Positions 24,000 to 45,250 of a stretch of 64,000 nucleotides of DNA are shown here, piece after piece. The notes below the pieces were generated by a model. That model was not told the origin of the DNA and searched no databases. It saw only the letters and a program-made list of their open reading frames with translations. How positions within the stretch are numbered: the stretch's first letter is position 1; each line of letters starts with the position of its first letter. The translations under genes were made by a program, and so were the position numbers. The DNA comes from Alphaproteobacteria bacterium (GTDB lineage: Bacteria > Pseudomonadota > Alphaproteobacteria > Micropepsales > Micropepsaceae), in assembly GCA_019241645.1 (NCBI GenBank), contig JAFAWQ010000023.1, forward strand, positions 1 to 64,000, in the 5' to 3' direction.

Positions 24000-24632
24000 T
24001 CAGCTTTTCAGCAGATTGTCGGTCAGCGCGTTCAGTTTCTCCACAAGCGCGGACGCACCACCGCTTTTCAGCGTCGAGGCGAAATCGGAGCGCCGGGTCG
24101 CAACCTCGCTGACATAGCCGTTGAGGAAAATATCCTTGATCTTCCAGCCGTGGCTGTTGCCCATCCTGTAGATGAAAGGAATGGGCGACTTGCCCGGCGA
24201 TGTCATTTGCGTGGCAACGATCTTGTCGCCGCCGCGCTCCTGTACCTGCGGGCTAGTAACGAACTGCTCGCCGCTATAGCCATCGAAATTCTTGGCGTAG
24301 TTGGCAATTGTCATGCGCCGGAACGCATCGATGATTTTTGCGCGATCGCCGGGTGACATGGAGGTCCACGACGGTCCTACAATGGTCTGAGTCATGGCCG
24401 GAAAATCGAAGGCAGCATCGACCGCTGGTTCCAGTTTCTTGTAGCGTCCCTGCACGCCCAACTCCTTGGCCTGCTTCATCGTCTCGACCAAAGTGCCATG
24501 AAAGGCATTGATCTGCCTGGCAGCGGGATCGCTTGCCGGGGCCGGAATTGCCGGCGCAGCGGATGATCCGGCGCTGGCAAGTCCGCACATTGCCAAACTG
24601 AAATAGAAGACCCGCAGACCGAAAGCACTCAT
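24000..24632 (-). CDS. hpnM: Hopanoid-associated MlaC/Ttg2D-like periplasmic protein HpnM
   Basis: Periplasmic lipid-binding protein of the toluene-tolerance Ttg2D/MlaC family, the HpnM subtype, probably a partner of HpnN. The protein has 210 residues: signal peptide (about 1-25), then the family features FDFPAMTQTIVGPSW and FIYRMGNSHGWKIKDIFLNGYVSE. The ATG follows AAAGGAG at good spacing. hpnM and hpnN are convergent here, so they are separate transcripts. Confidence 0.88.
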   Translation of the reverse strand: MSAFGLRVFYFSLAMCGLASAGSSAAPAIPAPASDPAARQINAFHGTLVETMKQAKELGVQGRYKKLEPAVDAAFDFPAMTQTIVGPSWTSMSPGDRAKIIDAFRRMTIANYAKNFDGYSGEQFVTSPQVQERGGDKIVATQMTSPGKSPIPFIYRMGNSHGWKIKDIFLNGYVSEVATRRSDFASTLKSGGASALVEKLNALTDNLLKS

Positions 24633-26853: not shown

Positions 26854-26860
26854 AAGCATT

Positions 26861-28009
26861 TTGGGTATTCCGTTCCGACAAGCCGCGAAGATCGGCGCTT
26901 ATGCGGTGAAACAACACCTTGCGGGGCGCAAGCGCTATCCGTTGGTGCTGATGCTGGAGCCGCTGTTCCGCTGCAATCTCGCCTGCGCCGGCTGCGGCAA
27001 GATCGATTATCCCGATGAGATCCTGAATCAGCGCCTCTCGCACGACGAGTGTATGCATGCCATCGAAGAATGTGGCGCACCGGCTGTTTCTATTGCCGGC
27101 GGCGAGCCGCTGCTGCATCGCGAGATGCCGCAAATCGTGAAGGGGTTCATCGCGCGCGACAGGTTCGTCATCCTCTGCACCAATGCTCTGCTGCTGGCCA
27201 AAAAGATCGACGACTACGAGCCACACCCCAATTTTTCCTGGTCCATCCATCTGGATGGCGACAAGGCGATGCATGACAAGAGTGTCTGTCTCGACGGCAC
27301 GTACGAGAAGGCAGTGGAAGCTATCAAGCTCGCCAAATCGCGCGGCTTTCGCACGCAGATCAACTGCACATTGTTCAACGATGCCGACCCAGAACGGACC
27401 GCGAAATTCTTCGACGAGATGACCGCGATGGGGCTCGACGGCATCACGGTGTCGCCGGGCTATGCCTACGAGCGTGCGCCAGACCAGCAGCATTTCCTGG
27501 ACCGCGAGCGTACGCGAAAGCTTTTTCGCGACATCTTCGCGCGCGGCAACGGTGGCAAGAACTGGGAGTTCACGCAGTCCGAGCTGTTCCTAGATTTCCT
27601 TGCCGGCAACCAGACCTACAAATGCTCGCCTTGGAGCATGCCGCTCCGCTGCGTCTTCGGCTGGCAAAAGCCGTGCTACCTGCTTGGCGAAGGCTATGCG
27701 AAGAGCTTCAGGGAACTGATGGACGACACGGACTGGGACAAATACGGCGTCGGCAATTACGAGAAATGTGCCAACTGCATGGTGCATTGCGGGTTCGAAG
27801 GCACGGCGGTGGCGGATTCCATCAACCATCCGTGGAAGATGATCCCGATCGGAATTCGTGGCGTGAAAACCGAAGGGCCAATGGCGCCGGATATTTCGCT
27901 GTCCAATCAGCGCCCCGCGGAATTCACATTCTCACGGCATGTGGAGCACAAGCTGGTGGAAATACGGGAGGCCAAGTCCCGGCCGAAAACGCTCGAGGCC
28001 GCGGAGTAG
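26861..28009 (+). CDS. hpnH: Adenosyl-hopene transferase HpnH (radical SAM)
   Basis: Joins 5-prime-deoxyadenosine to the hopene side chain, the first step of extended C35 hopanoids. The protein has 382 residues from a TTG start. The radical-SAM cysteines are C38, C42 and C45 in FRCNLACAGCGK; SIAGGEPLLH follows, and a C-terminal segment has further cysteines (NYEKCANCMVHCG). The opening MGIPFRQAAKIGAYAVKQHL matches the family, which supports TTG at 26861 over the upstream ATG at 26732 inside ispH. It is co-directional with ispH and converges on the metzincin gene with 26 bases between stops. Confidence 0.95.
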   Translation: MGIPFRQAAKIGAYAVKQHLAGRKRYPLVLMLEPLFRCNLACAGCGKIDYPDEILNQRLSHDECMHAIEECGAPAVSIAGGEPLLHREMPQIVKGFIARDRFVILCTNALLLAKKIDDYEPHPNFSWSIHLDGDKAMHDKSVCLDGTYEKAVEAIKLAKSRGFRTQINCTLFNDADPERTAKFFDEMTAMGLDGITVSPGYAYERAPDQQHFLDRERTRKLFRDIFARGNGGKNWEFTQSELFLDFLAGNQTYKCSPWSMPLRCVFGWQKPCYLLGEGYAKSFRELMDDTDWDKYGVGNYEKCANCMVHCGFEGTAVADSINHPWKMIPIGIRGVKTEGPMAPDISLSNQRPAEFTFSRHVEHKLVEIREAKSRPKTLEAAE

Positions 28010-29541: not shown

Positions 29542-29610
29542 GGCGTCCCCCTCGGCTCGATTGCTAATGAGAAACATTATCACAAATGTAATGCTCGCGC
29601 CAGCCTGTTG

Positions 29611-30267
29611 TCATGCAGCCGGGAACCCCGACGTTGGACCGATCCGTTCAATGCAGTACGAAATAGCCTTCAGGGCCGTTTTCGTCTCATGCGCCGTGCG
29701 AAACAGCGCACGCCATTGTGATGGCTCGTCCAGCAGGGAGAGCATCACCGCCGAATAGTCGATCCGGCCGTCTTTCCTAAGCCCGAATGCAGCCGCAGGC
29801 GGTAGCGCATGATGGGCATCGTCGGACACCGCGCGCAGGACAGCGAACGGCAGTTCACGCTCGGACGCGACTCGCGCGACGATGTGCGATTCCATATCGG
29901 CGGCAAGTGCGCCGGTTGGTGCATGCAGCGCGGCTTTGGCCGCTGCCGTCAGCAGAATGGAGTCGCTTCCCGCCACGGTTCCCATCGCTGAAGAACATGC
30001 GCTTGCAAGCGTGTTGGACCATCCTTCATCCGCGCGCCAACGCTGGCCTCCAAAAACCACCTCGTTTCCGATCAGCACGGTTCCGACGGCAAGCTCAGGC
30101 GACAATGCGCCGCAGATGCCGAAGGAAAGAAGAGCGCGCGAGCCGCGCGCGATCCCAGCTTCAATCTTCGACGCCAAAGTGGAATTGTCGCTTCCGGCCA
30201 CGATCACTTCGCAGCGGCCGCGCAGCAGTTTCGCCTCGCGCTGCATACCGGTGACGGCAAGCAGCAT
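29611..30267 (-). CDS. hpnG: Hopanoid nucleoside phosphorylase HpnG
   Basis: Removes adenine from adenosyl-hopane to give the ribosyl-hopane intermediate. The protein has 218 residues and resembles the MTA/SAH nucleosidase fold: FGICGALSPELAVGTVLI near the N-terminus and GALAADMESHIVARVA around the catalytic Glu/Asp region, then VLRAVSDDAHHALPP. The ATG overlaps the hpnF stop by one base (TAATG), so translation is coupled. It is the last gene of the eleven-gene run. The longer open frame upstream only shadows hpnF. Confidence 0.9.
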   Translation of the reverse strand: MLLAVTGMQREAKLLRGRCEVIVAGSDNSTLASKIEAGIARGSRALLSFGICGALSPELAVGTVLIGNEVVFGGQRWRADEGWSNTLASACSSAMGTVAGSDSILLTAAAKAALHAPTGALAADMESHIVARVASERELPFAVLRAVSDDAHHALPPAAAFGLRKDGRIDYSAVMLSLLDEPSQWRALFRTAHETKTALKAISYCIERIGPTSGFPAA

Positions 30268-32192
30268 TACAAGCCGTACTCCACGCGGCGCGTGTTGCCG
30301 GATTTCAGATTGCGATAGCGGGCCAGTGCCCACAGCGGGAAGAATTTCGGGTAACCGTGGTACCGCAGATAAAAGACACGCGGAAATCCGCCGCCGGTGT
30401 AGTGCTGCTGCGTCCACAACCCGTCCGCGCCTTGTGTTTCCTGCAAATGCGCGATGCCCCGGACAGCCGCCGGATGATCCACCTCGCCCGCCGCCATCAG
30501 CCCCAGCAACGCCCAGGCGGTTTGCGACGCAGTGGATGGAGCGGACTCGTATCCGGTGTAGTCGAGCCGGTAGCTGTCGCAGGTTTCGCCCCACCCGCCG
30601 TCGGCATTCTGGATGGCGATCAGCCACTCCGCAGCCTTGTGCATCATCGGATGTTCCGGATCGACACCCACAGCATTCAATCCCGCCAGCGCGGACCACG
30701 TGCCGTAAATGTAGTTCACGCCCCAGCGGCCGAACCAGCTGCCATCCTTCCGCTGGACGTGCTCCAAATAGTCAATAGCCGCCTTCATATGCGCAGTGTC
30801 GGCTGACTCGCCAAGTTGGGCCAGCATTCCAAGGCAGCGCCCTGTCACATCTTCCGTCGGCGGATCGAGCAGTGCGCCGTGATCGGCAAAAGGGATGTTG
30901 TTGAGGTAATAGTAGGCGTTATCCGCATCGAAGGCGCCCCAGCCGCCATTCCTGCTTTGCAGTCCCTCGATCCATTCCCGTCCGCGCGCAATCGCCTCTG
31001 CGTTGGTTTGCTTGGCCGCGCGATCCAGCGCCATCACCACGACGGCAGTGTCGTCCAGGTCGGGATAGTGCGCGTTGTTGTACTGGAAGGCCCAGCCGCC
31101 CGGCCGCACATCCGGCCGCTCGCCAGCCCAGTCGCCCTTTACATCCCGCACCTGTAGCGGCTTCAGCCATGCAAGGCCGCGCGATACGACCGCTTCGGTT
31201 CCTTGCACCTCCATCAGGGCATGGCAGGCGAGCGCGGTATCCCACACCGGCGACACGCACGGCTGACAGTAGGCTTCGTCCTCCTTGATGACGAGGAGCT
31301 TTTCCACTGCACGCCGTGCGATGGCGCGATGCGGGTGATCGGGGGGGCAGCCGAGACAATCGAACATCATCACCGAATTGGCCATGGCCGGATAGATCGC
31401 ACCCAGGCCATCCTCCCCGTTCAGACGTTCGATGACGAACGCCTCGCATTCCTCGATTGCGCGGCGACGGAGCGCTGTGGGCCAGAATGGGTCGGCGCGC
31501 TTCAGCACCCAATCGAGCGCGCCGAAGAAAGCGGACCAGCCGCGGCTCTGGTGCGGCGCGCGCTTCGGCGCGGGCGAACCCTGCAGCACAAACAGCTCCG
31601 GAACGTGGACGTTGCGCGGATTGCGCGCGCGAGGTTTCAGCGCCTGCAGCACGAGCAGAGGCACGATAACGGTTCGCGCCCAATACGACATCTTCGACAA
31701 GTGAATGGGAAACCAGCGTGGCAGCAGTATCAATTCGGGCGGAACAGTAGGCGTGTTGGTCCACGCCGTCTCGCCGTAGAGCGCGAGCTGCATGCGGGTG
31801 AACACGTTGGCGCGGCCGGCGCCGCCGTGCTCGAGAACAGCCTCGCGTGCACGGACCATGTGCGGGGCATCGGGCGAATCGCCGATCATCTTGAGCGCGA
31901 AGTAGGCTTTCACCGTAGCGCTGATGTCGAAAGCGCCGTCGTGATAGAGGGGCCAGCCGCCATGACCTGCCTGTCCGCGGCGCAGATAGACGCCGACCTT
32001 ATGTTCCAACTCCAGATTCGGCTTCTCGCCCAGATAGTGGACGAGCAGAATGTATTCCGATGGGATCGTGGCATCGGCTTCCAGCTCGAACACCCAATGC
32101 CCATCGGCGCGCTGCTCTTTCAGCAATGCTTCCGTGGCACGCGCAATTGCCGTGTCGAGTTCGGCACGATCAATGATGAGCGCTCGATCCAT
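30267..32192 (-). CDS. hpnF: Squalene-hopene cyclase
   Basis: Membrane-associated cyclase converting squalene to hopene and hopanol (also called shc). The protein has 641 residues, the normal length. The catalytic protonation motif is D378-L-D380-D381 in YPDLDDTAVV. Several QW repeats of the terpene cyclase fold are visible (for example QNADGGWGETCDSYR and QSRNGGWGAFDADN), and YTGGGFPRVFYLRYHGYP lies near the C-terminus. It follows hpnE by nine bases and is followed by hpnG with a one-base overlap. Confidence 0.97.
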   Translation of the reverse strand: MDRALIIDRAELDTAIARATEALLKEQRADGHWVFELEADATIPSEYILLVHYLGEKPNLELEHKVGVYLRRGQAGHGGWPLYHDGAFDISATVKAYFALKMIGDSPDAPHMVRAREAVLEHGGAGRANVFTRMQLALYGETAWTNTPTVPPELILLPRWFPIHLSKMSYWARTVIVPLLVLQALKPRARNPRNVHVPELFVLQGSPAPKRAPHQSRGWSAFFGALDWVLKRADPFWPTALRRRAIEECEAFVIERLNGEDGLGAIYPAMANSVMMFDCLGCPPDHPHRAIARRAVEKLLVIKEDEAYCQPCVSPVWDTALACHALMEVQGTEAVVSRGLAWLKPLQVRDVKGDWAGERPDVRPGGWAFQYNNAHYPDLDDTAVVVMALDRAAKQTNAEAIARGREWIEGLQSRNGGWGAFDADNAYYYLNNIPFADHGALLDPPTEDVTGRCLGMLAQLGESADTAHMKAAIDYLEHVQRKDGSWFGRWGVNYIYGTWSALAGLNAVGVDPEHPMMHKAAEWLIAIQNADGGWGETCDSYRLDYTGYESAPSTASQTAWALLGLMAAGEVDHPAAVRGIAHLQETQGADGLWTQQHYTGGGFPRVFYLRYHGYPKFFPLWALARYRNLKSGNTRRVEYGL

Positions 32193-32201
32193 GGCGTGAA
32201 A

Positions 32202-33458
32202 TTACCGGTTAAGCGAGCGCAGCGCCAATTCCGCCGCGCGATTGCCGGAGCGCACGGCCCCTTCGATGGTTGCCGGCAGGCCGGTGTCGGTCCAGTCGCC
32301 GGCGAGGAACAGGTTCGTCCAGCGGGTCTCGGGCTTCGGACGGCGGTTCGCCTGCCCCGGCGTGGCGGCGAACGTGGCGCGGCGCTCCTTCACGATCTGC
32401 CAGGGTGGCAGCTGCGGCCCGGCTTTGAGCACCGTCGCCACATCAAGCCAGAGGACGTTGGCCAGATCCTCGCGATCGCGATCCACGATGGCATCGGCGC
32501 CGGACACCGTGACGGAAATACGATCCGGAAATGCGAATGCCCATTCCGCGGTCCCCCCGATAACGCCTGTCATCAATGGCGCGTTTGCCGACGGGGCAAT
32601 CGCGAAATGCGCATTCAGAATGGAGCGAAATTCCGATGGCACTGACACGTCCGGAAGCAAATCAGCAGTTACCGCCGCCGGTGTCGCAAGCACCACGCGA
32701 TCTTCCTCGGCCAACGGAATTGCGCCATCGGCAAACTCAAGCGAGGTTGCGCGCCCGTCCGCGAGTTCAATTTTTCGCAACCGTTTGCCGTATTGCAGGT
32801 TGACATCATTACGCTTGAGATAGTCCAGCGCGGGGTCGATGAACGTACTGCCGAGGTGCGGGAAAGCGATGCGCGGACGATAGGCGCGGCCGCCTTTGAG
32901 TAGTGTCTCCCGCAATACCGCGCCTGCAAGCTTGCAAGAGGCAATTTCCGGTTCGGTGTTGAGCGCCGCAAGCAGCAACGGCCGCAACAAACGCTCCCAT
33001 AGCGGACCATGGCAGTCGATGACCTGATCGATGCGCTTGTCCCCGCCCGCCAGCAGCAGCTTGCCGATATTCCCGTATTCGCCAAGGCGCGTGCCGGGCA
33101 CGCGGCGGGATTTCGAAAATATCCACCACGGTATCGATCCATCGTTCGGCGCCACAGTCCAGCGCGCGCGGCTCCGTACATCGACGAACGGAAACCGCGC
33201 CTGTTCCGGCCCGGCAAGCCGGTCTGCCGAACCAATGGTGCGAAGGTAAGCAAACGTCGCGTGATTGCCGGAGAGAATAAGATGATTGCCGTTGTCGATG
33301 ACCTGGTTGAGCACCGGATCGAGATAGGAACGGCAGCGGCCACCCGCCTGCCCCGCTCCCTCGATCAGCACCACCCGAGCTCCCTGGCTCGCAAACGCAA
33401 CGCTGGCCGAGAGGCCGGAAAGTCCTGCCCCGATAACGTAAACCTTTCCGCTGCTCAT
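32202..33458 (-). CDS. hpnE: Hydroxysqualene dehydroxylase HpnE
   Basis: FAD-dependent amine-oxidase-fold enzyme that reduces hydroxysqualene to squalene. The protein has 418 residues. The N-terminal dinucleotide fold is VYVIGAGLSGLSASVAFASQG, followed by GGRCRSY, and the C-terminal FAD segment is LFLAGDWTDTGLPATIEGAVRSG. The ATG overlaps the hpnD stop (ATGA), and the gene sits next to HpnC and HpnD, the usual squalene-making trio. Confidence 0.95.
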   Translation of the reverse strand: MSSGKVYVIGAGLSGLSASVAFASQGARVVLIEGAGQAGGRCRSYLDPVLNQVIDNGNHLILSGNHATFAYLRTIGSADRLAGPEQARFPFVDVRSRARWTVAPNDGSIPWWIFSKSRRVPGTRLGEYGNIGKLLLAGGDKRIDQVIDCHGPLWERLLRPLLLAALNTEPEIASCKLAGAVLRETLLKGGRAYRPRIAFPHLGSTFIDPALDYLKRNDVNLQYGKRLRKIELADGRATSLEFADGAIPLAEEDRVVLATPAAVTADLLPDVSVPSEFRSILNAHFAIAPSANAPLMTGVIGGTAEWAFAFPDRISVTVSGADAIVDRDREDLANVLWLDVATVLKAGPQLPPWQIVKERRATFAATPGQANRRPKPETRWTNLFLAGDWTDTGLPATIEGAVRSGNRAAELALRSLNR

Positions 33459-34312
33459 CCGATCAGGCCGTGCGCCAGCACGATGGCCGCAAGTCGCGGC
33501 TTCGACAAACTCACCCGGCGGCGTGGCGGCGCCCAGCCCCGCTTTTCCATTTCACGCAGAATCTCGGAATAGACCGCGGCCATAAGCTTCGGCGCTCGCA
33601 GGCGACCCTTGGGGCGCATGCGGAGTATGCGCGTCGCTTCGCCGAAATGCCGGTGGGCAAGGCGCGCCACCTTGCGGCAAACGGCATCGATTGCTGGATC
33701 GCGAATGGTCTGCTTCGGATCGCGTACGGCGAGGTGAGCTTCTTCGCAGTATTCTCTTGGCAAATAGAGGCGGCCCGCTTTTGCGTCCTGATCCAGATCG
33801 CGCAGGATGTTGGTGAGCTGCAGTGCGCGCCCTAAATGGTGGGCCAGCTGAAAGCCGGGCTCCTCCTCCATGCCAAATACCTTGATCGAGAGCCGTCCCA
33901 CCGCGCTCGCCACCCGCTCGCAATAGAGATCCAGCGTTTCCAGTGAAGGCGCGCGGATGTCTTGGGCAACATCCATTTCCATGCCATCGATGACGGCGAG
34001 GAAATCGTCCTTGCGCAGCCGGTAACGCTCCACGGCACCGGCGAGGAAGCCGGCGCGACCCAAAGGACCGGCGGCGTAAAGGGACTTTAGATCGGCGCGC
34101 CATGTATCGAGCGCGGCGTGGCGCTCATCGCGCGTGCCGACACCATCGTCCGCAATGTCGTCTACTGCGCGGCAGAAAGCGTAGATGGCGAACATCGCCT
34201 CGCGCTCCGGCTTCGCCATCAGCTTCATCGCGGCATAGAAAGAGCTTCCGGTGGCCCGCTGTTCGATGGCGCGGATTTCAGGCGCAGTTTCGCCAGGTGC
34301 CACTGCGCTCAT
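33455..34312 (-). CDS. hpnD: Presqualene diphosphate synthase HpnD
   Basis: Condenses two farnesyl diphosphates to presqualene diphosphate. The protein has 285 residues. Asp-rich motifs of the squalene/phytoene synthase fold are AVDDIADDG and NILRDLDQDAKAGRLYLP, with SSFYAAMKLM near the start. It overlaps hpnC upstream and hpnE downstream by four bases each. The split HpnC/HpnD/HpnE route replaces a single squalene synthase here. Confidence 0.95.
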   Translation of the reverse strand: MSAVAPGETAPEIRAIEQRATGSSFYAAMKLMAKPEREAMFAIYAFCRAVDDIADDGVGTRDERHAALDTWRADLKSLYAAGPLGRAGFLAGAVERYRLRKDDFLAVIDGMEMDVAQDIRAPSLETLDLYCERVASAVGRLSIKVFGMEEEPGFQLAHHLGRALQLTNILRDLDQDAKAGRLYLPREYCEEAHLAVRDPKQTIRDPAIDAVCRKVARLAHRHFGEATRILRMRPKGRLRAPKLMAAVYSEILREMEKRGWAPPRRRVSLSKPRLAAIVLAHGLIG

Positions 34313-35184
34313 GAAGATCTCAGCGCGAGCACGCGTTTGTCCCGCGTAAATTGCGAGCCGGCGAAGCGCGCGGTTGCGCCCATCAGAAGCGGAATGAGAT
34401 CGATTTTTCGATGATGGACCCGTTCGCTAAGTGGATCGCGATGGACCAGCTTGTTTGCCAGGTCTTCCGCCAGGCGCTGAATGATGGTGACTTCGAAGGC
34501 CAACCTCCGATCCCGGATTTGCTTCGCGAACGGCCGCGCCTTGCCCAGCAAGCCCTGTGTTCTATGGGCTAAATCGGAGAAGACGTTACGCAGGCTCGGC
34601 GATGCGCGGCCCCTGCTCAGGTCCTCCGCGCAGGCCCCGGCGGCTGTCAGCGTATCCTGAGGAATGTAGATGCGATCGAGCGCGCGGTAATCCTTTCCAC
34701 AATCCTGCAAATGATTGACGATCTGCAGCGCCGCGCAGAGGGCATCATTGGCCGTCCAGGTATCGCGGCTTTCTTCGTGGATATCCAGCACAAACCGGCC
34801 GACCGGCATGGCGGAATATCGGCAATAGTCCATCAGCTCGTCCCAGTTCGCATAGCGCAGCTTGGTCACGTCGCGGCGGAAAGCCTCGAGCAGCATCAGT
34901 CCATGTTGCGCACTTAACCCCCGCTCCTCCAGAATGTGCCGCAAGGCCAGCGCTTCCGGCGCGCTGTCGAGCTCGCCGGTCATGGTTCGGTCCATCTCCT
35001 CGAGCAGGCGGAGCTTTTCGTCGGCTGAAGCTGTCGGGTGGTCCGCCACATCGTCTGCCGCGCGCGCAAAACGGTAGAAGGCGAGAATGACAGGCCGGTG
35101 CTTTCGGCGGATTAAAATGGACGCGACCGGGAAATTTTCGTCCCGATGCTCTTTGCCGGATTGCAATTCTGCCGCCCTGCTCAT
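34309..35184 (-). CDS. hpnC: Hydroxysqualene synthase HpnC
   Basis: Converts presqualene diphosphate to hydroxysqualene. The protein has 291 residues with the phytoene synthase fold: EHRDENFPVASILI, then the first Asp motif RAADDVADHP, and the second motif variant NHLQDCGKDYRALDRIYIP, in which one Asp is replaced by Cys-Gly as expected for HpnC. It overlaps hpnB upstream and hpnD downstream by four bases each. The long open frame to 35616 is a shadow of hpnB. Confidence 0.93.
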   Translation of the reverse strand: MSRAAELQSGKEHRDENFPVASILIRRKHRPVILAFYRFARAADDVADHPTASADEKLRLLEEMDRTMTGELDSAPEALALRHILEERGLSAQHGLMLLEAFRRDVTKLRYANWDELMDYCRYSAMPVGRFVLDIHEESRDTWTANDALCAALQIVNHLQDCGKDYRALDRIYIPQDTLTAAGACAEDLSRGRASPSLRNVFSDLAHRTQGLLGKARPFAKQIRDRRLAFEVTIIQRLAEDLANKLVHRDPLSERVHHRKIDLIPLLMGATARFAGSQFTRDKRVLALRSS

Positions 35185-36314
35185 CGCGCCATCGCCTGTG
35201 CGCGACCTTTCCACATTCCGCCGCGGCCGCGCCAGTGTTGCATGGCCGAGTCGAGGGTGAATGTGCCATAGAGAACGCCGATGGCCGGCAGAGCCAGTGT
35301 CCATACCGGTGAGCGCCGATAGAAGCGCAGTATCGGCAAATAACTCAAGGCCATCGCCAACCAGACGGCAAAACCAGCGACGCGCACGAATCCCGTGCCA
35401 CAAATTGCAAGCAACACGGGCGCCGCGAATACGGCCAGCAGCCCCGCCAGCGTTCCGGCCAGTAGCACGGGTGAGTAGTTCAACTGCGCATAGGCCGAAC
35501 GCGCCACCATGCGGCGGATATCGTTCATGTCTGCATACGGCCGTATGGAGACGGAGCGGTTGGTCAAGCCCAGCCAGATCGGCCCTTGCCTTTTCATCAA
35601 CTCGCCCAAGGCACAATCATCGATCAGCGCGCTGCGAATGGTCGAGATGCCGCCGCCACGCTCAAATGCTTCACGCCTGACCAGCATGCAGCCACCGGCA
35701 GCCGCCGATGTCCTCTTCTTCGGATCGTTCACCCATGCAAACGGGTAGAGCATCTGGAAGAAATACACGAACGCTGGAACGAAAGACTTTTCGGCCGATG
35801 AGGCGCAGGACAGCCGCGCCATCAGGGAAGTAAGCACGAGGTTCCCGTGCTCCGCTCGCGAGACAAGGTGACGCAAATTATCCGGCGTGTGTGCAATATC
35901 GGCATCGGTGAACCAGAAATAGTCTGTGCCGCGCGCGTGTGTCACGCCTTGTGAAATCGCCCAAAGTTTTCCCGTCCATCCGGCGGGACGCGTGGCCGCG
36001 CGAATGACTGTGAGCTTGCCCCCGTGTTCCAGCGCGCGGGCCAATTCGCCACTGCCATCTTCGCTCTGATCGTCAACCAGGACGATTTCAAAGGATCCCG
36101 GATAATCCTGTGCCAGCAGACTGCCGATGGAGCGTTCGATCACATCCGCTTCGTTGCGCGCAGGAACAATAGCAGTCACGGCGGGCCAACATCCAGGTTC
36201 GGGCATGATTCTTCGATCATCCCGTTCGCGCGCGGCCCAAAACATTCCGCGGGCTGCCAGAAGGTAGAGCCAAATCGCCGCCGGAACGAACGCCAGCCAT
36301 GCCAACCCGTTCAT
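35181..36314 (-). CDS. hpnB: Hopanoid-associated glycosyltransferase HpnB
   Basis: Family 2-type glycosyltransferase of the hopanoid cluster. The protein has 377 residues: an N-terminal membrane helix (about 3-24), the GT-A domain from VTAIVPARNEADVIE with DDQSEDGSGEL and the DxD-like motif FTDADIAHTPDN, and three C-terminal helices from about 280. The exact sugar and lipid are unsettled for the family. It overlaps hpnA upstream and hpnC downstream by four bases each. Confidence 0.92.
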   Translation of the reverse strand: MNGLAWLAFVPAAIWLYLLAARGMFWAARERDDRRIMPEPGCWPAVTAIVPARNEADVIERSIGSLLAQDYPGSFEIVLVDDQSEDGSGELARALEHGGKLTVIRAATRPAGWTGKLWAISQGVTHARGTDYFWFTDADIAHTPDNLRHLVSRAEHGNLVLTSLMARLSCASSAEKSFVPAFVYFFQMLYPFAWVNDPKKRTSAAAGGCMLVRREAFERGGGISTIRSALIDDCALGELMKRQGPIWLGLTNRSVSIRPYADMNDIRRMVARSAYAQLNYSPVLLAGTLAGLLAVFAAPVLLAICGTGFVRVAGFAVWLAMALSYLPILRFYRRSPVWTLALPAIGVLYGTFTLDSAMQHWRGRGGMWKGRAQAMAR

Positions 36315-37303
36315 CGTACATATCCCACGGCGCGGAACCAGTTGAGCGCATCCGCCAGCGCGAGCCGCCATGGAACGGTGGAATAGCCCAACTCGCGCTT
36401 CGCTTTGACCGAGCTGAAGAACATCAACTGCCGCGACATGGTAAGCGCATCTGCGGTGATGAACGGCTCTACCCCGGTCACGCGCGCCACGGCTTCCGCG
36501 GCAAAGGCAAGCGGATAGAGCGGCCCGCGCGCGAGACGTACTCGTGGCGGCTTACGGCCAACCAGCCGGGCAATTTCGATCAGTATGTCTTTCAGCATCA
36601 CATTGTGACCGCCGAGGATATAATTCTCGCCGATGCGGCCCTTTTCCAGCGCCAGCATGTGGCCTTCGGCAACATCGTCGACATGCACGAGATTGAGGCC
36701 GGTTTCGACATAAGCCGGCATGCGCCCGTTCGCCGCTTGCACCATCATGCGGCCGGTAGGCGTCGGACGCACATCGCGCGGACCAATCGGCGTCGATGGA
36801 CTGACGATGACGGCCGGCAGGCCGGCAGCGATCATGTCTTCGACCACGCGCTCCGCCGCCACCTTGCTCTTCTTGTAGGCGCCGATTGCTGAATTTATGT
36901 CCGCGCGGTCGCTTTCATCGGCATCGCTGCCACCGCCGCGAGGCTTCAGCGCTGCCACCGAGCTTGTATACACGACCCGCTCGATTCCGGCGTCGCGCGC
37001 CGCTTCCATGACGGCGCGCGTGCCTTCGCGATTGTTGCGGATGATCTCGTCGGGATCGCGAGCCCACAGCCGGTAGTCCGCCGCTACGTGAAACAGATAG
37101 CGCGCGCCTTGCATGGCCGAAGCCAGCGAGGGGGGATCGTGAAGGTCCCCTTCGACGATTTCACAGTCAATGCAATTGACATTGACTCGCGGACTATTGG
37201 AGCGAACCAGCGCCCGCACCTGCAGGCCTCGCGCAATAGCCTTGCGAGCCACAGCTGAGCCGACGAAGCCTGACGCCCCCGTGATTAGGGCGACGTCAGT
37301 CAT
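36311..37303 (-). CDS. hpnA: Hopanoid-associated sugar epimerase/dehydratase HpnA
   Basis: Extended short-chain dehydrogenase. The protein has 330 residues with the NAD-binding motif TGASGFVGSAVARKA at residues 8-22, the downstream VAADYRLWARDP and the catalytic YKKSK with its Tyr and Lys. TSSVAAL provides the active-site Ser region. It probably modifies a sugar used by the hopanoid glycosyltransferases, as inferred for the family. The start at 37303 overlaps the hpnL stop by eight bases. Confidence 0.92.
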   Translation of the reverse strand: MTDVALITGASGFVGSAVARKAIARGLQVRALVRSNSPRVNVNCIDCEIVEGDLHDPPSLASAMQGARYLFHVAADYRLWARDPDEIIRNNREGTRAVMEAARDAGIERVVYTSSVAALKPRGGGSDADESDRADINSAIGAYKKSKVAAERVVEDMIAAGLPAVIVSPSTPIGPRDVRPTPTGRMMVQAANGRMPAYVETGLNLVHVDDVAEGHMLALEKGRIGENYILGGHNVMLKDILIEIARLVGRKPPRVRLARGPLYPLAFAAEAVARVTGVEPFITADALTMSRQLMFFSSVKAKRELGYSTVPWRLALADALNWFRAVGYVR

Positions 37304-38312
37304 AGATGCGGCCTCGCAGAGTGGGCGGGAAGAGCGCGCGCCGGCCCTCCGCGATCTGCCAGCTGAGCAGCACAGGTACCCCGAGTGCGACCTCCCGCGC
37401 ACGCTTGAGCAGCGACACGGCGATGCCGATGTCTGCCGGCAGTCCGAATAGCGGCATCATCACCGCATAGCCGGCCTCCTGCACGCCAATGGCTGCCGGA
37501 ACGAACACGGCGGCGCTTCGCGCTGCACAGAGCAGGCTCTCGATCGCGATGGCGCCCCAGAAGGATATCGGGTGTCCGATCAACGCAAGCGCGAGCCAGG
37601 TGCCGAACGCCGCGGACAGCCAGCCTGCAAAATGCAGCGCAAGTCCGGCGCCCATTCGTCCCGGCTGTCCGTGTATGCGGTTGACCGCCTGATCGAACTC
37701 GCCGGCCGCGAGTTCCGCGGCCGGGAGAAACCTGCGGGCGATTCGCTCCAGCAGCGCGAAGCCCCGGCGCTGTGCCAGAACGAAGGTCGCCACAAGAATG
37801 ATCGCAATCAAAACGCCGAGGGCGGCCGTTCGCATCATCGGCAGCGCGCGCAGACCTGGCAGCTGCACGACAAGAATGACAAGCCCGGTAAGGATAAAGG
37901 CGATCTGCGCGATCATCTCCAGCGTGATGTCCACAATGGTCGAGCCGAAGGCTTCCGAACCGGAAATGCCGCGCAGCATCACCGCGCGCGCGCCGATGAC
38001 CATGCCGCCGAATTGGGAGAACGGAAGCACGTCGCCCGCCGAATCCCGCACGGCCCGGCCCCAGCAAAATGTCGCGGCTCGCGATGGCGTTACCGGTGAC
38101 GCCAGCACGAGCCACGCCAATCCGAGGAGCGCGAAATTCGCCAGTCCGTAGACGCAGAGCAGCGCAAACCCGCTCCAGCCGACAGAGACTGCGGCGTCTA
38201 CAATGGCGTGAAAGCCGATGCGGAAGAAGAGGTATGCCGCGCCGCAAAGACCAACGAGCGCGGCAATCACGGCACCGGTTCTTACAGATCGCCTGGAAGC
38301 GCTTTCGCTCAC
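37296..38312 (-). CDS. hpnL: Hopanoid-associated membrane protein HpnL
   Basis: Polytopic membrane protein of the UPF0104/lysylphosphatidylglycerol synthase transmembrane family, the HpnL subtype. The protein has 338 residues with about seven or eight helices, including the family-typical DVLPFSQFGGMVIGARA and VPAAIGVQEAGYAVMMPLFG. It is thought to help move or modify hopanoids, but its function is not proven. It overlaps the upstream ferritin-like gene (ATGA) and hpnA. Confidence 0.88.
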   Translation of the reverse strand: MSESASRRSVRTGAVIAALVGLCGAAYLFFRIGFHAIVDAAVSVGWSGFALLCVYGLANFALLGLAWLVLASPVTPSRAATFCWGRAVRDSAGDVLPFSQFGGMVIGARAVMLRGISGSEAFGSTIVDITLEMIAQIAFILTGLVILVVQLPGLRALPMMRTAALGVLIAIILVATFVLAQRRGFALLERIARRFLPAAELAAGEFDQAVNRIHGQPGRMGAGLALHFAGWLSAAFGTWLALALIGHPISFWGAIAIESLLCAARSAAVFVPAAIGVQEAGYAVMMPLFGLPADIGIAVSLLKRAREVALGVPVLLSWQIAEGRRALFPPTLRGRIYD

Positions 38313-39205
38313 GCCCGCGCAGGCTTGCGCATTAAACGGCGAGCAAACCGCACCATTCGCGGCACGAAATTGGGCCGGAGCAGACGCGTATCGTAGATGC
38401 CAAGGCGCCGGTCATTCTCGGCGAGGCAGGTGTCCATCAGTTCCGCCACCGAAACGTCCACGCCCAGATCCTGCGCGCCGTTCACTGTGAAATTGTTGTC
38501 CTGCGGCGCGCCGCCTACATCCCTGGCGATGCCGATACGCTCCCAGATCAGGAACGCCCACACCGCCGCTATTTTCAGGGCAAACCCGGGCCGCCGCCAC
38601 AGCGGAATGTTGCGCCGGTGCCAGGCCACCCAATTCACATAGAAGAGGATGTGCCGGCCCTCCTCACGCATTACCGGCTCGAAGGTCTCGACCAATTCCT
38701 TCGGGAAGAAGCCAGAACGGCGTGCCGTTTCAAACAAACCGAAGGCAAAAAAACTATCGATGCACTCGCTGTAACCGGTGACCATGAAAGCCCATTCCGC
38801 ATCCCGTGGCACCGCATATTCAGGCTCGGGTTCCAGCTGAATTCCATATGCCTGCACCATGTTGTGCAGCACGTGCTTGTGGCGCTTCTCCTCGAACGCG
38901 TTGAGCGCAATCGCCTGGTTCAGCAGCGGGTCGGCAACGGTATCGCCATAGGTCTGCACCCGCAGCCCGGCTTTGCCTTCGGTCTGCACGGCGATATCCC
39001 AAATAGGCAACGAGGTGAGCCGCGCGAGCGCGTCCGGCTCCAGCTCAGGCCAGTCGATCACCGCGGGTTTGTACGGATCGAAGGTCGAGAGCAGCGTGAA
39101 GCAGAACAGCTTTTTATGATCTTCGCTGCCAAGACGGATGGCGCCGACCGGAGGCGCCATCATATCTTCGGACAGGTCCGGAAATGTGAGCGGCTGCAGC
39201 GTCAT
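38309..39205 (-). CDS. Ferritin-like putative di-iron protein in the hopanoid operon
   Basis: A protein of 298 residues, soluble apart from a hydrophobic helix near 210-225. Two EXXH motifs lie about 75 residues apart: E106-KR-H109 (in FEEKRHKH) and E182-GR-H185 (in MREEGRHIL). E76 and E147 are candidates for the remaining metal ligands, giving the ferritin-like di-iron pattern E...EXXH...E...EXXH. It could be an oxygen-using enzyme or a metal-binding partner; no substrate can be read. It follows hpnJ with one base between the stop and the ATG, and its stop overlaps hpnL, so it is co-translated with hopanoid genes. The usual HpnK deacetylase is not present in the window. Confidence 0.75.
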   Translation of the reverse strand: MTLQPLTFPDLSEDMMAPPVGAIRLGSEDHKKLFCFTLLSTFDPYKPAVIDWPELEPDALARLTSLPIWDIAVQTEGKAGLRVQTYGDTVADPLLNQAIALNAFEEKRHKHVLHNMVQAYGIQLEPEPEYAVPRDAEWAFMVTGYSECIDSFFAFGLFETARRSGFFPKELVETFEPVMREEGRHILFYVNWVAWHRRNIPLWRRPGFALKIAAVWAFLIWERIGIARDVGGAPQDNNFTVNGAQDLGVDVSVAELMDTCLAENDRRLGIYDTRLLRPNFVPRMVRFARRLMRKPARA

Positions 39206-39206
39206 C

Positions 39207-40634
39207 TCACGCCGCCTTGCGCCGCTCGCGCAGGAACTCGAAAAACTCCACGCCTTCGCGCAGCCGCCGCTTCATCATGTCGGTTGAGCGGACCATCTCA
39301 CCCACGATCGCTGCGATCTTTCGAGGCCGGAAATAGAACTCGCGGTAAAAGCCTTCGAGAGAATCGAAAATCTGCTTGTGCGAGAGATGCGGATAATGCA
39401 GCGGCGCAATCTGGATGCCGTGCTCTTCGACAAGCTCCGCGTTCGCCGCATCCAGCCAGCCGTTTTGCACTGCCTGATTGTAAAGGAACGTGCCCGGATA
39501 CGGCGCGGCCAACGAAACCTGGATGGTATGCGGATTGATGCGCTTGGCGAACTCGACCGTCTCGCGGATGGTCACCGTGCTTTCCCCCGGCAAGCCCAGA
39601 ATGAACGTCCCATGGATGGCGACGCCGAGCTCGTGGCAGTCCTTGGTGAAGCGCTCCGCCACTTCAACGCGCATGCCCTTCTTGATGTTGAAGAGAATCT
39701 GCTGGTTCCCGGATTCATAACCAACCAGCAGCAACCGCAGGCCGTTGTCCTTCAGGACCTCCAGCGTCCTGCGCGGAACGTTCGCCTTCGCGTTGCAGGA
39801 CCAGGTCACGCCGAGCTTGCCCAATTCCTTTGCGATCGCTTCGGCGCGCGGCAGATCATCGGTGAACGTATCGTCGTCGAAGAAGAATTCCTTCACCTGA
39901 GGGAACGCGGCTTTCGCCCAGCGGATTTCGTCGATAACATGGCCAACACTGCGGGTACGGTAGCGATGCCCGCCAACCGTTTGCGGCCACAGGCAGAAAG
40001 TGCAGCGGGATTTGCATCCCCTGCCCGTGTACAGCGAGATGTAGGGGTGTTTCAAATAACCGATGAAGTAGTCCTCGATCTGAAGATGTCGCTTGTAGAC
40101 CGGCGTCACGAACGGAAGCGCGTCCATGTTCTCGATCATCGGTCGATCGGCATTGTGCAGGATCGCACCGCGCCCGTTACGGTAGGAAATGCCGACGATA
40201 TCTTTCAATGGAATCTCGTCGGCTACGTCCTTGACGGTGAAATCGAACTCGTTGCGCGCAACGTAATCGACCATCGGCGCCTCGCGCAGCGAACCTTCCG
40301 CGTTCACCGCAACCTTTGCGCCGATCAGTCCCGCGAGCAGGTTCGGGTTGGCCTCCTTCAAGGCCGCAATCGTCGCCACATCGGATTTGAACGACGGCAC
40401 GGAGGTATGCACCACGACATGATCGAAATCCTTCGCTTGCGCCACGATTTCGGCAAGCCCGATGCGACGAGGAGGCGCATCGATCAGTTTTGAATTCTCA
40501 ATCAGCGCGGCCGGCTGCGCCAGCCAGGTGGGAAACCAGAACGATTTGATCTCGCGCTTCGCCTGATAGCGCGAGCCGGCTCCACCATCGAAGCCGTCAA
40601 AAGAGGGAGCCTGAAGAAACAGTGTCCGAAGCAT
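39207..40634 (-). CDS. hpnJ: Hopanoid biosynthesis radical SAM protein HpnJ
   Basis: B12-binding-type radical SAM enzyme, thought to contract the glucosamine ring to the cyclitol ether of composite hopanoids. The protein has 475 residues. An N-terminal cobalamin-like domain spans about 60-180; the radical-SAM cysteines are C207, C211 and C214 in GRGCKSRCTFCLWP. GYESGNQQILFNIKKG and FILGLPGES follow. Its usual co-substrate is made by HpnI plus HpnK, and HpnK is not seen here. The start ATG overlaps the hpnI stop by one base (TAATG). Confidence 0.93.
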   Translation of the reverse strand: MLRTLFLQAPSFDGFDGGAGSRYQAKREIKSFWFPTWLAQPAALIENSKLIDAPPRRIGLAEIVAQAKDFDHVVVHTSVPSFKSDVATIAALKEANPNLLAGLIGAKVAVNAEGSLREAPMVDYVARNEFDFTVKDVADEIPLKDIVGISYRNGRGAILHNADRPMIENMDALPFVTPVYKRHLQIEDYFIGYLKHPYISLYTGRGCKSRCTFCLWPQTVGGHRYRTRSVGHVIDEIRWAKAAFPQVKEFFFDDDTFTDDLPRAEAIAKELGKLGVTWSCNAKANVPRRTLEVLKDNGLRLLLVGYESGNQQILFNIKKGMRVEVAERFTKDCHELGVAIHGTFILGLPGESTVTIRETVEFAKRINPHTIQVSLAAPYPGTFLYNQAVQNGWLDAANAELVEEHGIQIAPLHYPHLSHKQIFDSLEGFYREFYFRPRKIAAIVGEMVRSTDMMKRRLREGVEFFEFLRERRKAA

Positions 40635-41776
40635 TATCCAATCACCTGCGAAATTGCCCCGCCCTTTTCGATGCGGAAACGGTCTCCCCGCCAGCTGACT
40701 TCCATACCCCCCATGAGGGAAGCCAGAAACACTGCGAACGCCAGCAAATCCCGAACTGGCATGAGCCAAAACGCGCCTGTTCGGAACCCGGCCGCCCGGT
40801 CGACCAAAAACTTAAGGAGAAAACGGCTTACCAAAACGGCTACGAGCGCCAGCATGGAAGCGCTGGAAAAGTCCAGCAGTACTGTCCCCATCAGGGCGAG
40901 CGGCAGCGTATGCGTTATCACACTTGACCAGTGACCAGCTAGGTTGACTGTGCGAATCGTGCGAGCCCATCGGAATTCGTGATTCCACAAGCTGGCAGGG
41001 CTTGCTTCGACGCAACGATGCCGGACCAAAACGGCGGCATAAGCCAGATCAAAGCCTCTGGCGCGCACGGACCGGCCAAGTTCGAAATCATCGGCCAGGC
41101 AATCGCAAAGCGATTGAAAGCCGCCGATCGCAGCAAGGGTGTCCCGCCGCAGTGCCATGGTCGCCCCAAAACAGGGGGCCGTCATGCGCATAGCCGTTCC
41201 CAGCACCGCGTTCGGCAGAAACTGATAACTGATCCCCATGGCGCCCAGCCGGGACCAGAAGGTTTCGCCCTCCCCGCTATAGAAACAGGAAACAACGCCG
41301 ACGCGCGTTGTTGTGAAAGCAGCCGCGACCGCGGAAAGCCAGTTGCGCGGCGCTACAATGTCCGCATCGGCTACCACGATGAGATCGTGCTTCGCCGCGC
41401 CCATCATGTTGATGAGATTTGAAATCTTGCGGTTAGCCCCGTGCTGCCGGGAGTCGATCACCAAGACGATCTCCCGGTTTGGAAAGCGCCTTTGCAGCCT
41501 TTCGACCACATCGCGTGCCGGATCAAGCGCGCTCTGCAATCCGCAGATCATCTGCACGGAGGCTGGGTAATCCTGCTCAAGCGCGCGCGCGAGCATTTCC
41601 TCCAGGCCCGGGGGAGCGCCATGGAGTGGCTTCAGCAAGGTCATCGGAGGACAACCCGATGGCGCCCGGGCGCGAAGCCTTCCCCTTGCCCAGACCAATA
41701 GGGCGCCCGTCAAAGTCAAGGCTGCCCCGGCGAGCGCCGCAGCAAGGGCAATCCACCCTACAATTTGCAAAGCCAA
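40634..41776 (-). CDS. hpnI: Hopanoid glycosyltransferase HpnI
   Basis: Family 2-type glycosyltransferase that adds N-acetylglucosamine to bacteriohopanetetrol. The protein has 380 residues: N-terminal helix (about 4-30), GT-A domain with MTLLKPLHGAPP, the DxD motif VVADADIVAP and the acceptor motif LADDFELGRSVRARG, HRCVEASP, the (Q/R)xxRW-type HEFRWARTIR, and C-terminal helices. It is the first gene of the minus-strand operon and starts with TTG. The next in-frame ATG is 45 codons in, within the catalytic domain, so TTG is the best choice. Confidence 0.9.
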   Translation of the reverse strand: MALQIVGWIALAAALAGAALTLTGALLVWARGRLRARAPSGCPPMTLLKPLHGAPPGLEEMLARALEQDYPASVQMICGLQSALDPARDVVERLQRRFPNREIVLVIDSRQHGANRKISNLINMMGAAKHDLIVVADADIVAPRNWLSAVAAAFTTTRVGVVSCFYSGEGETFWSRLGAMGISYQFLPNAVLGTAMRMTAPCFGATMALRRDTLAAIGGFQSLCDCLADDFELGRSVRARGFDLAYAAVLVRHRCVEASPASLWNHEFRWARTIRTVNLAGHWSSVITHTLPLALMGTVLLDFSSASMLALVAVLVSRFLLKFLVDRAAGFRTGAFWLMPVRDLLAFAVFLASLMGGMEVSWRGDRFRIEKGGAISQVIG

Positions 41777-41969
41777 AACGCCTCCCGGTCCCGTAGGGGC
41801 TCTTATGGGCGTCTACGCCCGTTGGGGCAATGCTTCTATTCATTATCGCTTGGCTAGACCGGCGGGCTGTGCTAGGTGGCGATTGGCTAGGCGACGGGTC
41901 TGTCCGCATCCATACATGTGAAAGGTCAAACATCACCTGTGGATGCTTTTCTGTGGTAGGGGTTTGAAA
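41777..41969. promoter_or_regulatory. 193-bp divergent control region, hopanoid operon / oxidase cassette
   Basis: The two divergent transcription units start here. Short repeated GGCTAG/GCTAGG elements are visible at 41852-41857, 41871-41876 and 41885-41891, the last two followed by GGCGA or GCGACG. No clear consensus promoter could be assigned by eye. Confidence 0.4.
41781..41786 (-). promoter_or_regulatory. Ribosome-binding site of the hpnI TTG start
   Basis: Read on the minus strand, GGGAGG lies four bases before TTG at 41776-41774. A second TTG two codons downstream has a ten-base spacing. Either could serve; both give essentially the same protein. Confidence 0.5.
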
Positions 41970-43580: not shown

Positions 43581-43618
43581 AGCGGAGCTGCGAAAACGCG
43601 GCTTCGTGGTGGGTTGAA

Positions 43619-45205: not shown

Positions 45206-45250
45206 GCGGCTCGGTGTTGAGCAAGGCAACTTGGGGAAGAGGAACATAAG

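Follow-up and report, generated by a model that had tools for sequence, protein, structure and literature searches.

A predicted di-iron carboxylate protein in a hopanoid operon as a candidate bacteriohopanepolyol side-chain hydroxylase

A reading frame for a predicted di-iron carboxylate protein (FLP) is located within a hopanoid operon of an alphaproteobacterium, which raises the question of what this protein might contribute to hopanoid synthesis. The DNA analyzed, referred to as the window, is a contiguous stretch of 64,000 nucleotides. No ferritin-like or di-iron protein was found named in hopanoid synthesis in open-licence PMC papers (in PMC5438186, the term ferritin-like occurs only within a reference title). 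According to a survey published in 2025, which covered 52 cultured strains of alphaproteobacteria, the genes behind bacteriohopanepentol and bacteriohopanehexol are unknown, with no candidate near hpn clusters (PMC12583986).

The operon and its additional gene

Genes in the window were identified using an NCBIfam profile scan, with hpnG assigned by position (Table 1), and the resulting operon order was hpnI-J-FLP-L-A-B-C-D-E-shc-G. The location of FLP inside the hopanoid operon given in the preliminary description was confirmed in window coordinates, where the hpnJ stop and the FLP ATG are spaced by 1 nt and the end of FLP shares 4 nt with the start of hpnL (GTG). Given this tight spacing, FLP is very likely co-transcribed and translationally coupled with both neighbors. 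No reductase was found among the operon genes scanned by profile, which was counted against the hydroxylase reading developed below.

Table 1. Coordinates of hopanoid genes and predicted FLP metal ligands in the window
Feature	Position	Strand	Evidence
FLP, predicted di-iron carboxylate protein	38309..39205	(-)	ORF with ATG start, 298 aa
E76 codon, predicted metal ligand, helix 69-87	38978..38980	(-)	147/147 conserved
E106xxH109 codons, first ExxH, helix 93-120	38879..38890	(-)	E 147/147, H 146/147
E147 codon, helix 136-164	38765..38767	(-)	147/147 conserved
E182xxH185 codons, second ExxH, helix 176-199	38651..38662	(-)	E 147/147, H 147/147
hpnI, BHT glucosamine glycosyltransferase	40634..41776	(-)	TIGR03472, 417.5 bits
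hpnJ, radical SAM cyclitol-ether enzyme	39207..40634	(-)	TIGR03471, 800 bits (cut-off 577.6)
hpnL, membrane protein	37296..38312	(-)	TIGR03476, 266 bits (cut-off 195.7)
hpnA	36311..37303	(-)	TIGR03466, 480 bits
hpnB, approximate start	35181..36371	(-)	TIGR03469, 517 bits
hpnC, approximate start within longer ORF	34309..35151	(-)	TIGR03464, 288 bits
hpnD	33455..34312	(-)	TIGR03465, 309 bits
hpnE	32202..33458	(-)	TIGR03467, 384 bits
shc (hpnF), squalene-hopene cyclase	30267..32192	(-)	TIGR01507, 746 bits
hpnG	29611..30270	(-)	Position after shc, shared by its counterparts in related loci
hpnH, adenosylhopane synthase	26855..28009	(+)	TIGR03470, 533 bits
hpnM	24000..24632	(-)	TIGR03481, 206 bits
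hpnN, hopanoid transporter	21391..23994	(+)	TIGR03480, 946 bits (cut-off 751.9)

Predicted metal site, fold and sequence family

In the AlphaFold model of FLP (AF2; pLDDT 91.1, pTM 0.90), six predicted ligands in the order E, ExxH, E, ExxH are located on four separate long helices. These comprise the two EXXH motifs pointed out in the preliminary description (E106xxH109 and E182xxH185) together with E76 and E147 on two other helices. Conservation was scored over 147 distinct family sequences, and because every ligand was retained in at least 146/147 of them, the ExxH motifs are not a product of chance. The predicted ligands of FLP are those of the di-iron carboxylate (ferritin-like/R2-like) superfamily.

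The top PDB structural matches of the model, using both Foldseek and VIA, were R2lox and RNR R2. All 50 matches listed by VIA were R2 or R2lox (Z 14.8-13.7 over 216-243 residues, where helical bundles alone can reach about 14). The best Foldseek E value was 2.1e-3 and the R2lox TM was about 0.4-0.5, and this weakness was counted against the hydroxylase reading. Families missing from the match lists were given no weight. The earlier label of "ferritin-like" is apt in the broad sense, with the model resembling the larger R2/R2lox type. The order of metal ligands in R2lox is that predicted in FLP, and R2lox binds a ligand similar to a fatty acid. However, R2lox and R2 shared 5-18% identity with FLP in structural alignments, FLP differs from them in its position in a hopanoid operon, and the NCBIfam R2lox model matched 1/72 FLP family members (E 0.074) and gave no match to the window FLP; judged by sequence, the window FLP does not appear to be a member of the R2lox family.

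No Pfam or NCBIfam model scored above its cut-off for the window FLP, with zero NCBIfam matches at E 0.01 and only a sub-threshold Pfam match to Rubrerythrin (PF02915; 14.6 bits, cut-off 22.8). Weak profile matches were obtained across 72 family members for AurF (21/72, best E 0.0058), Rubrerythrin (20/72 at E up to 0.1, best E 5.4e-6) and the aerobic cyclase AcsF (NCBIfam; 11/72, best E 6e-4), which are all di-iron families, and for Ferritin_2 (7/72). The sole PDB sequence match under E 0.1 was a MiaE-like hydroxylase (5ux1), in which E76 and both ExxH motifs of FLP align; the E values were 0.013-0.048, however, and E147 was aligned to a non-Glu residue. MiaE-like hydroxylases are smaller than FLP and act on other substrates. 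AurF, the p-aminobenzoate N-oxygenase (PF11583), is a soluble di-iron oxygenase, but it gave no match to the window FLP and its substrate class differs. In NCBIfam, the window FLP gave no match to AcsF, the aerobic Mg-protoporphyrin monomethyl ester cyclase, a di-iron O2-using enzyme with another substrate. Under anaerobic conditions the counterpart of AcsF is BchE, which an excerpt of PMC13142503 describes as a radical SAM enzyme dependent on cobalamin and places in one group with HpnJ. For 13 plasmid matches to FLP, the gene table (which is incomplete) listed no annotated gene under the match.

Hopanoid linkage and distribution across genomes

Related loci were examined for the best 80 of 542 FLP relatives, and are thus biased to close relatives, by using BLAST with the window's proteins. 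At least one other hpn gene was present in the fetched DNA of 70 of these 80 loci, hpnJ in 57/80 and an hpnL-like gene in 66/80; in the loci carrying both, hpnJ and FLP were separated by ≤ 1.5 kb in 44/57. FLP is therefore encoded with hopanoid genes in these relatives as well as in the window's operon, a linkage on which the preliminary description had staked its proposal. HpnJ was found above cut-off in 23 of 24 FLP-positive genomes searched, 20 of which had been chosen for a fetched locus with no hpnJ (hpnJ was located elsewhere in 19/20). In two genomes FLP lies next to hopanoid genes although HpnJ is absent: G139, and G814, in which FLP adjoins hpnN near shc-hpnG. A divergent relative (G008; 47% identity, long branch) adjoins a LysR regulator and a GMC oxidoreductase, with no hpn gene recognized in the 19.5 kb fetched around it, and was counted against the hydroxylase reading. 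In G211, the FLP reading frame is open throughout the protein. A paralogue, FLP2, forms tandems or fusions with FLP.

Except for two strains, the counts compare whole orders or genera, with shared ancestry ignored. In the order of Sphingomonas formosensis, HpnJ was present in 3/157 genomes and FLP in the same three. In the Acetobacterales sample, FLP was present in 146/200 genomes, HpnJ in 153/200 and both in 139/200. The order of Rhodoblastus contained HpnJ above cut-off in 12/297 genomes and FLP in the seed only, FLP being absent from 11/11 non-seed HpnJ genomes. The four HpnJ-positive genomes of Methylobacterium (genus g8, named from member G028) were all without FLP. In the phylum sample, FLP was rare (4/200 genomes). 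FLP was also present in a Burkholderia cenocepacia strain. An AMO search of the 200-genome phylum sample returned two genomes, one (G102) read as an ammonia oxidizer from sequence and the other in the window's class. Pentol makers outside the orders examined include type I methanotrophs (aminopentol) and Nostoc.

Several of these counts weigh against the hydroxylase reading. HpnJ was present without FLP in 14 Acetobacterales genomes and FLP without HpnJ in seven; in the phylum sample, HpnJ accompanied FLP in only 2/4 genomes, and 6/8 HpnJ-positive genomes lacked FLP (two of these, G124 and G160, belong to another class). Several FLP-positive loci (L030, L031, L042, L046, L066 and L070) were labelled Hyphomicrobiales-type, and the 19 surveyed strains counted for that order contained hardly any pentols. 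Most relatives encode FLP within the HpnI-HpnK-HpnJ cyclitol ether module or in a genome that has this module, but HpnJ without FLP and FLP without HpnJ both occur. Given that each occurs alone, FLP looks like an optional decoration rather than a step of that module.

The distribution of FLP resembles that published for bacteriohopanepentol and bacteriohopanehexol. At the strain level, two surveyed strains could be scored and both were positive, while Methylobacterium was negative at the genus level. One genome (G747) was taken as Gluconacetobacter diazotrophicus PA1 5 because a plasmid contig showed no difference across the 8,000 bases that were compared; the survey's G. diazotrophicus PA 5 is presumably this strain. 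It encodes FLP and was reported with 6% pentol plus hexol, and S. formosensis CC-Nfb-2 (L077), also FLP-positive, with 23% pentol plus hexol and 1% unsaturated hopanoids (PMC12583986). Values above 0 were reported for 13/20 Rhodospirillales (including 9/10 Acetobacteraceae), 6/8 Sphingomonadales and 1/19 Hyphomicrobiales (1%), and 0% for four Methylobacterium/Methylorubrum strains (PMC12583986, Table 3). Elsewhere in the survey, Novosphingobium rosa and Rhizomicrobium palustre combine cyclitol ether with 0-1% pentol, while Skermanella and Nitrospirillum contain 26-44% pentol. For another B. cenocepacia strain, an excerpt of PMC8560942 annotates a mass spectrometry feature as a likely BHpentol cyclitol ether. 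Set against the survey's lack of candidate genes, FLP lies inside an hpn cluster and fits the pentol/hexol distribution. A link to 22S epimers was considered and dropped, since 22S BHT was reported only in Rhodospirillales (PMC12583986), yet a Sphingomonas has FLP.

Proposed function and competing explanations

We propose, with a probability of roughly 0.6, that FLP is an O2-dependent bacteriohopanepolyol side-chain hydroxylase of the di-iron (or di-metal) carboxylate oxygenase type. The support is correlative and consists of gene position, ligand conservation, the model helices, linkage to hopanoid genes and a pentol-like distribution. In the proposed mechanism, two irons held by E76, E106/H109, E147 and E182/H185 would bind O2 and generate a high-valent oxo species in the manner of other soluble di-iron oxygenases. 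FLP would then hydroxylate the alkyl part of the side chain by inserting a single oxygen atom into an unactivated C-H bond adjoining the tetrol, presumably at C-31 and then C-30. Bacteriohopanetetrol, or its cyclitol ether, would thereby be converted to the pentol, and the hexol may be formed with FLP2. The identity of the metal, the use of O2, the electron donor and the actual substrate, whether free tetrol or cyclitol ether, are inferred. The hydroxylase reading, if correct, would supply a gene by which a set of geological biomarkers could be traced and would predict an O2 requirement for making them. More tentatively, FLP may make pentols and FLP2 hexols, the two together being oxygen-dependent hydroxylases that determine how many hydroxyls a bacteriohopanepolyol carries. 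If so, FLP/FLP2 would be the genetic marker for BHpentol and BHhexol and would tie these compounds to oxygen.

The preliminary description had offered three roles: oxidation of the hopanoid side chain, oxidation of the ring or support of HpnJ. That interpretation is partly supported: of the three, side-chain oxidation agrees best with the pentol/hexol distribution, while the other two fit badly for the reasons given below.

An unlikely alternative, though the one that fares best, is that FLP makes another oxidized hopanoid (for example, one hydroxylated on its sugar part or a 32-oxo intermediate), with the pentol only co-occurring or needing a second enzyme. This is compatible with di-iron chemistry, and the occurrence of FLP2 in tandems and fusions points to more than a single step. 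The survey favors a 32-oxo route in which a hydratase acts separately, and cites such a compound from Zymomonas (PMC12583986, section 4.1.2.6). However, direct hydroxylation of carbon is possible for a di-iron oxygenase, which would make a second enzyme unnecessary, although a hydratase may be among the recurrent unlabelled genes neighboring FLP in related loci.

Support or repair of HpnJ during its radical SAM ring contraction to the cyclitol ether is suggested by the closeness of FLP to hpnJ in the window and in the related loci, by the searched FLP-positive genomes (selected as described above) and by HpnJ in 139/146 FLP-positive Acetobacterales. This role is nonetheless improbable, because HpnJ occurs without FLP in Methylobacterium, and FLP without HpnJ in G139 and G814; the 11 HpnJ genomes other than the seed in the order of Rhodoblastus also stand against it. 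Counting atoms in the formulas makes the ring contraction an isomerization, so no net oxidation is needed. In addition, BHT cyclitol ether, the HpnJ product, is made by Methylobacterium extorquens AM1 according to an excerpt of PMC5358736, and the four HpnJ-positive genomes of its genus lacked FLP.

We regard as still less probable that FLP is a ring desaturase making delta-6 or delta-11 double bonds. Its predicted ligand set is that of acyl-ACP desaturases, and B. cenocepacia has both FLP and unsaturated hopanoids. FLP is also common in Acetobacterales, and seven surveyed acetic acid bacteria contain 49-82% unsaturated BHPs (PMC12583986, Table 3). On the other side, Afipia broomeae, placed in Hyphomicrobiales, has 43% unsaturation, and at the order level, taking its order to be that of Rhodoblastus, the seed alone among 297 sampled genomes carried FLP. 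Ring oxidation also fits badly because FLP-positive S. formosensis combines 23% pentol plus hexol with 1% unsaturation, and surveyed Sphingomonadales with pentols have 0-1% (PMC12583986).

Ferritin-like proteins are often iron-handling or stress proteins, but that FLP is one carried along with the operon, as its family's Rubrerythrin and Ferritin_2 matches might suggest, is very improbable given structural matches to R2/R2lox rather than storage proteins and its rarity and accompaniment of hopanoid genes.

The window's hopanoid operon does not contain hpnK, and replacement of HpnK by FLP was considered and dropped, since many loci carry the two side by side in one gene set. Neighboring genes were clustered with frames chosen by codon-position GC, and an HpnK gene cluster (a label resting on one scanned member) was present in 45/80 related loci, mostly directly after hpnJ.

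Operon setting and predicted di-iron site of FLP

By coordinates, the gene for FLP, a predicted di-iron carboxylate protein, lies 1 nt beyond the end of hpnJ, and its final 4 nt are shared with the beginning of hpnL. Its neighbours were named by NCBIfam as HpnI, HpnJ, HpnL, HpnA, HpnB, HpnC, HpnD, HpnE and squalene-hopene cyclase, with HpnH, HpnM and HpnN farther out in the window; the preliminary description of a gene embedded with hpnJ and hpnL in a hopanoid operon was borne out. FLP itself gave zero NCBIfam matches at E 0.01 and Rubrerythrin alone, below threshold, in Pfam. No second protein of its kind was found in its own genome at E 0.001, and no reductase was found among the operon genes scanned.

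Coordinates of FLP, the hopanoid region and adjacent features
Feature	Position	Strand	Basis
FLP	38309-39205	-	ORF, 298 aa
Hopanoid region	21391-41776	both	NCBIfam-named genes
515-aa protein between hpnH and hpnG	28036-29583	-	weak M6-metalloprotease-domain match (47 bits, cut-off 110.8)
Three successive multicopper-oxidase-like proteins (each ~540 aa), divergent from the hopanoid operon	41943-46873	+	translations, by eye
SCO1-like protein	46874-47464		translation, by eye
Cytochrome-c-like protein	47464-47997		translation, by eye

Ligand conservation was counted across 147 distinct family sequences (116 with at least 45% identity to the window FLP and 31 of the paralogue group FLP2). E76, E106, E147, E182 and H185 were invariant in all 147 and H109 was present in 146, so that both EXXH motifs (E106/H109, E182/H185) earlier noted as fitting a di-iron site were conserved in at least 146 of 147. 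An AlphaFold model from a 72-sequence input (pLDDT 91.1, pTM 0.90) placed the predicted ligands on four separate long helices. The PDB structures it matched best were those of R2lox and of the R2 protein of ribonucleotide reductase (VIA Z 14.8-13.7, among the 50 matches listed). An R2/R2lox-type fold is considered likely but not settled, because the lowest Foldseek E was just 2.1e-3 and unrelated helical bundles can score Z ~14 by VIA. Weak profile matches among 72 family members were to AurF (21), Rubrerythrin (20), AcsF (11) and Ferritin_2 (7); AurF and AcsF are di-iron enzymes that use O2.

Linkage of FLP to hopanoid genes and HpnJ

Relatives were collected by a contig search with a 5-sequence alignment, which returned at least 542 matches; the best 80 of 542 were analysed, which biases the counts to close relatives. 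Genes were called within the fetched DNA by BLAST to the window's proteins. Among these best 80 of 542, the link to hpn genes anticipated for homologues elsewhere was recovered, with at least one other hpn gene in 70 loci and hpnJ in 57 (56 on the same strand as FLP, 44 within 1.5 kb). An HpnL-like gene was present in 66, hpnI in 53, and HpnK (identity from one scanned member) as a neighbour cluster in 45. Whole genomes were searched for HpnJ for 20 of the 23 loci lacking hpnJ in fetched DNA and for 4 hpnJ-bearing ones; HpnJ exceeded the cut-off in 19/20 and 4/4, the exception being the genome of L088 (G219; below cut-off, top score 127.7 bits).

The window operon has no hpnK at the hpnJ-FLP junction (39205-39207), though hpnI and hpnJ are present. 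No HpnK over cut-off was found in its own genome (99.67% complete; top 46.3 bits vs 232.6), and two close relatives, L009 and L010, likewise showed no gene of the HpnK cluster. Elsewhere in the window's genome, a 267-aa protein with distant similarity to HpnK (C2:21737-22513; locus L089 1246-2049) may be a substitute.

For order-level counts, genomes without their own name were assigned the order of the named seed. Genomes within orders share ancestry, for which the Fisher values calculated are uncorrected. In the order of S. formosensis (n=157), HpnJ was found in 3 genomes and FLP in the same 3, seed included. FLP was common in Acetobacterales (n=200 around Lichenicoccus roseus), occurring in 146 genomes against 153 for HpnJ (139 both, 7 FLP alone, 14 HpnJ alone, 40 neither). 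In the order of Rhodoblastus (n=297), FLP was seen in the seed alone, despite HpnJ over cut-off in 12 genomes; a further genome had two partial HpnJ matches. The phylum sample (n=200) contained FLP in 4 genomes (the window's own, G039, G008, G139) and HpnJ over cut-off in 8, with both in 2.

HpnJ-like radical SAM proteins at E 1e-60 but under the HpnJ cut-off occurred in 20/200 phylum-sample genomes (e.g. G037, G069, G141), with best scores of about 208-411 bits and several copies in some. The FLP of G008 (L008) is divergent (47% identical, long branch); its neighbours are a regulator of the LysR type and an oxidoreductase of the GMC type, with no recognised hpn genes beside it, and it may have some other function.

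Proposed side-chain hydroxylation and alternatives

From its ligand motif, the type of fold predicted, its operon and its distribution, we propose that FLP is a hopanoid side-chain hydroxylase (probability roughly 0.60). Its presumed di-iron site would activate O2, with electrons from a putative donor, and would put oxygen into a C-H adjoining the tetrol, this regiochemistry and the substrate stage being likewise presumed.

Bacteriohopanepentol (BHpentol) and -hexol counts were taken from the available part of a 2025 survey of 52 cultured alphaproteobacterial strains (PMC12583986), as values above zero with n.a. rows excluded. They were 13/20 for Rhodospirillales (including 9/10 Acetobacteraceae), 6/8 for Sphingomonadales, 1/1 (1%) for Micropepsales and 1/19 (1%) for Hyphomicrobiales. 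In that part, its authors describe the pentol/hexol genes as unknown, with no candidate near the hpn clusters (PMC12583986). FLP was present in S. formosensis CC-Nfb-2 (L077; 23% pentol plus hexol, 1% unsaturation), and an FLP-FLP2 tandem in G. diazotrophicus PA1 5 (G747), which we take to be the surveyed PA 5 (6% pentol plus hexol; PMC12583986). FLP was also carried by Acetobacter aceti NBRC 14818, A. ascendens, A. oryzifermentans, Komagataeibacter medellinensis, Azotobacter beijerinckii (L073) and one B. cenocepacia strain. According to the accessible sections of the respective reports, Azotobacter vinelandii is a characterised pentol maker, a feature from B. cenocepacia K56-2 in one medium was annotated as a likely BHpentol cyclitol ether (PMC8560942), and a Rhodopila strain produces BHpentol cyclitol ether (PMC8590665). 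Pentols are predicted for the FLP loci with Hyphomicrobiales-type labels (L030, L031, L042, L046, L066, L070).

The preliminary description had offered side-chain oxidation, ring oxidation or support of HpnJ; the distribution fits pentol makers and thus the first, while the other two fit badly. Catalysis of another hopanoid oxidation is possible but unlikely. Support of HpnJ is doubtful: four of the six phylum-sample genomes with HpnJ but without FLP belonged to one genus (g8), named as Methylobacterium because G028, one of its members, has a contig identical to a plasmid of Methylobacterium bullatum, and M. extorquens AM1 produces the cyclitol ether (PMC5358736, available portion). Conversely, FLP in G139 (no HpnJ match at E 1e-60) lies immediately before an hpnA-to-hpnG operon, with FLP2 past HpnN at the opposite side, and in G814 (none at E 1e-100) it adjoins HpnN near shc-hpnG. 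FLP therefore tracks hopanoids rather than HpnJ itself. A desaturase is improbable, as surveyed Sphingomonadales with pentols, including FLP-bearing S. formosensis, had 0-1% unsaturation (PMC12583986, same part). An iron function unrelated to the hopanoid setting is very improbable.

The FLP2 paralogue

FLP2 shares 33-37% identity with the window FLP and formed a separate clade (SH-aLRT 100) in a quick tree of 72 rows, with long branches there. It directly follows FLP, in tandem, in 17/80 loci (best 80 of 542). FLP and FLP2 could possibly act as two hydroxylases, for a pentol step and then a hexol step. No FLP2 was found in the window genome at E 0.001, so pentols but few hexols would be expected there on this two-step model. 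Loci L016-L019, L024 and L088 have open frames of 527-581 aa that look like FLP/FLP2 fusions, the first half being FLP-like and the second FLP2-like; long frames were also present in L041, L057 and L072.
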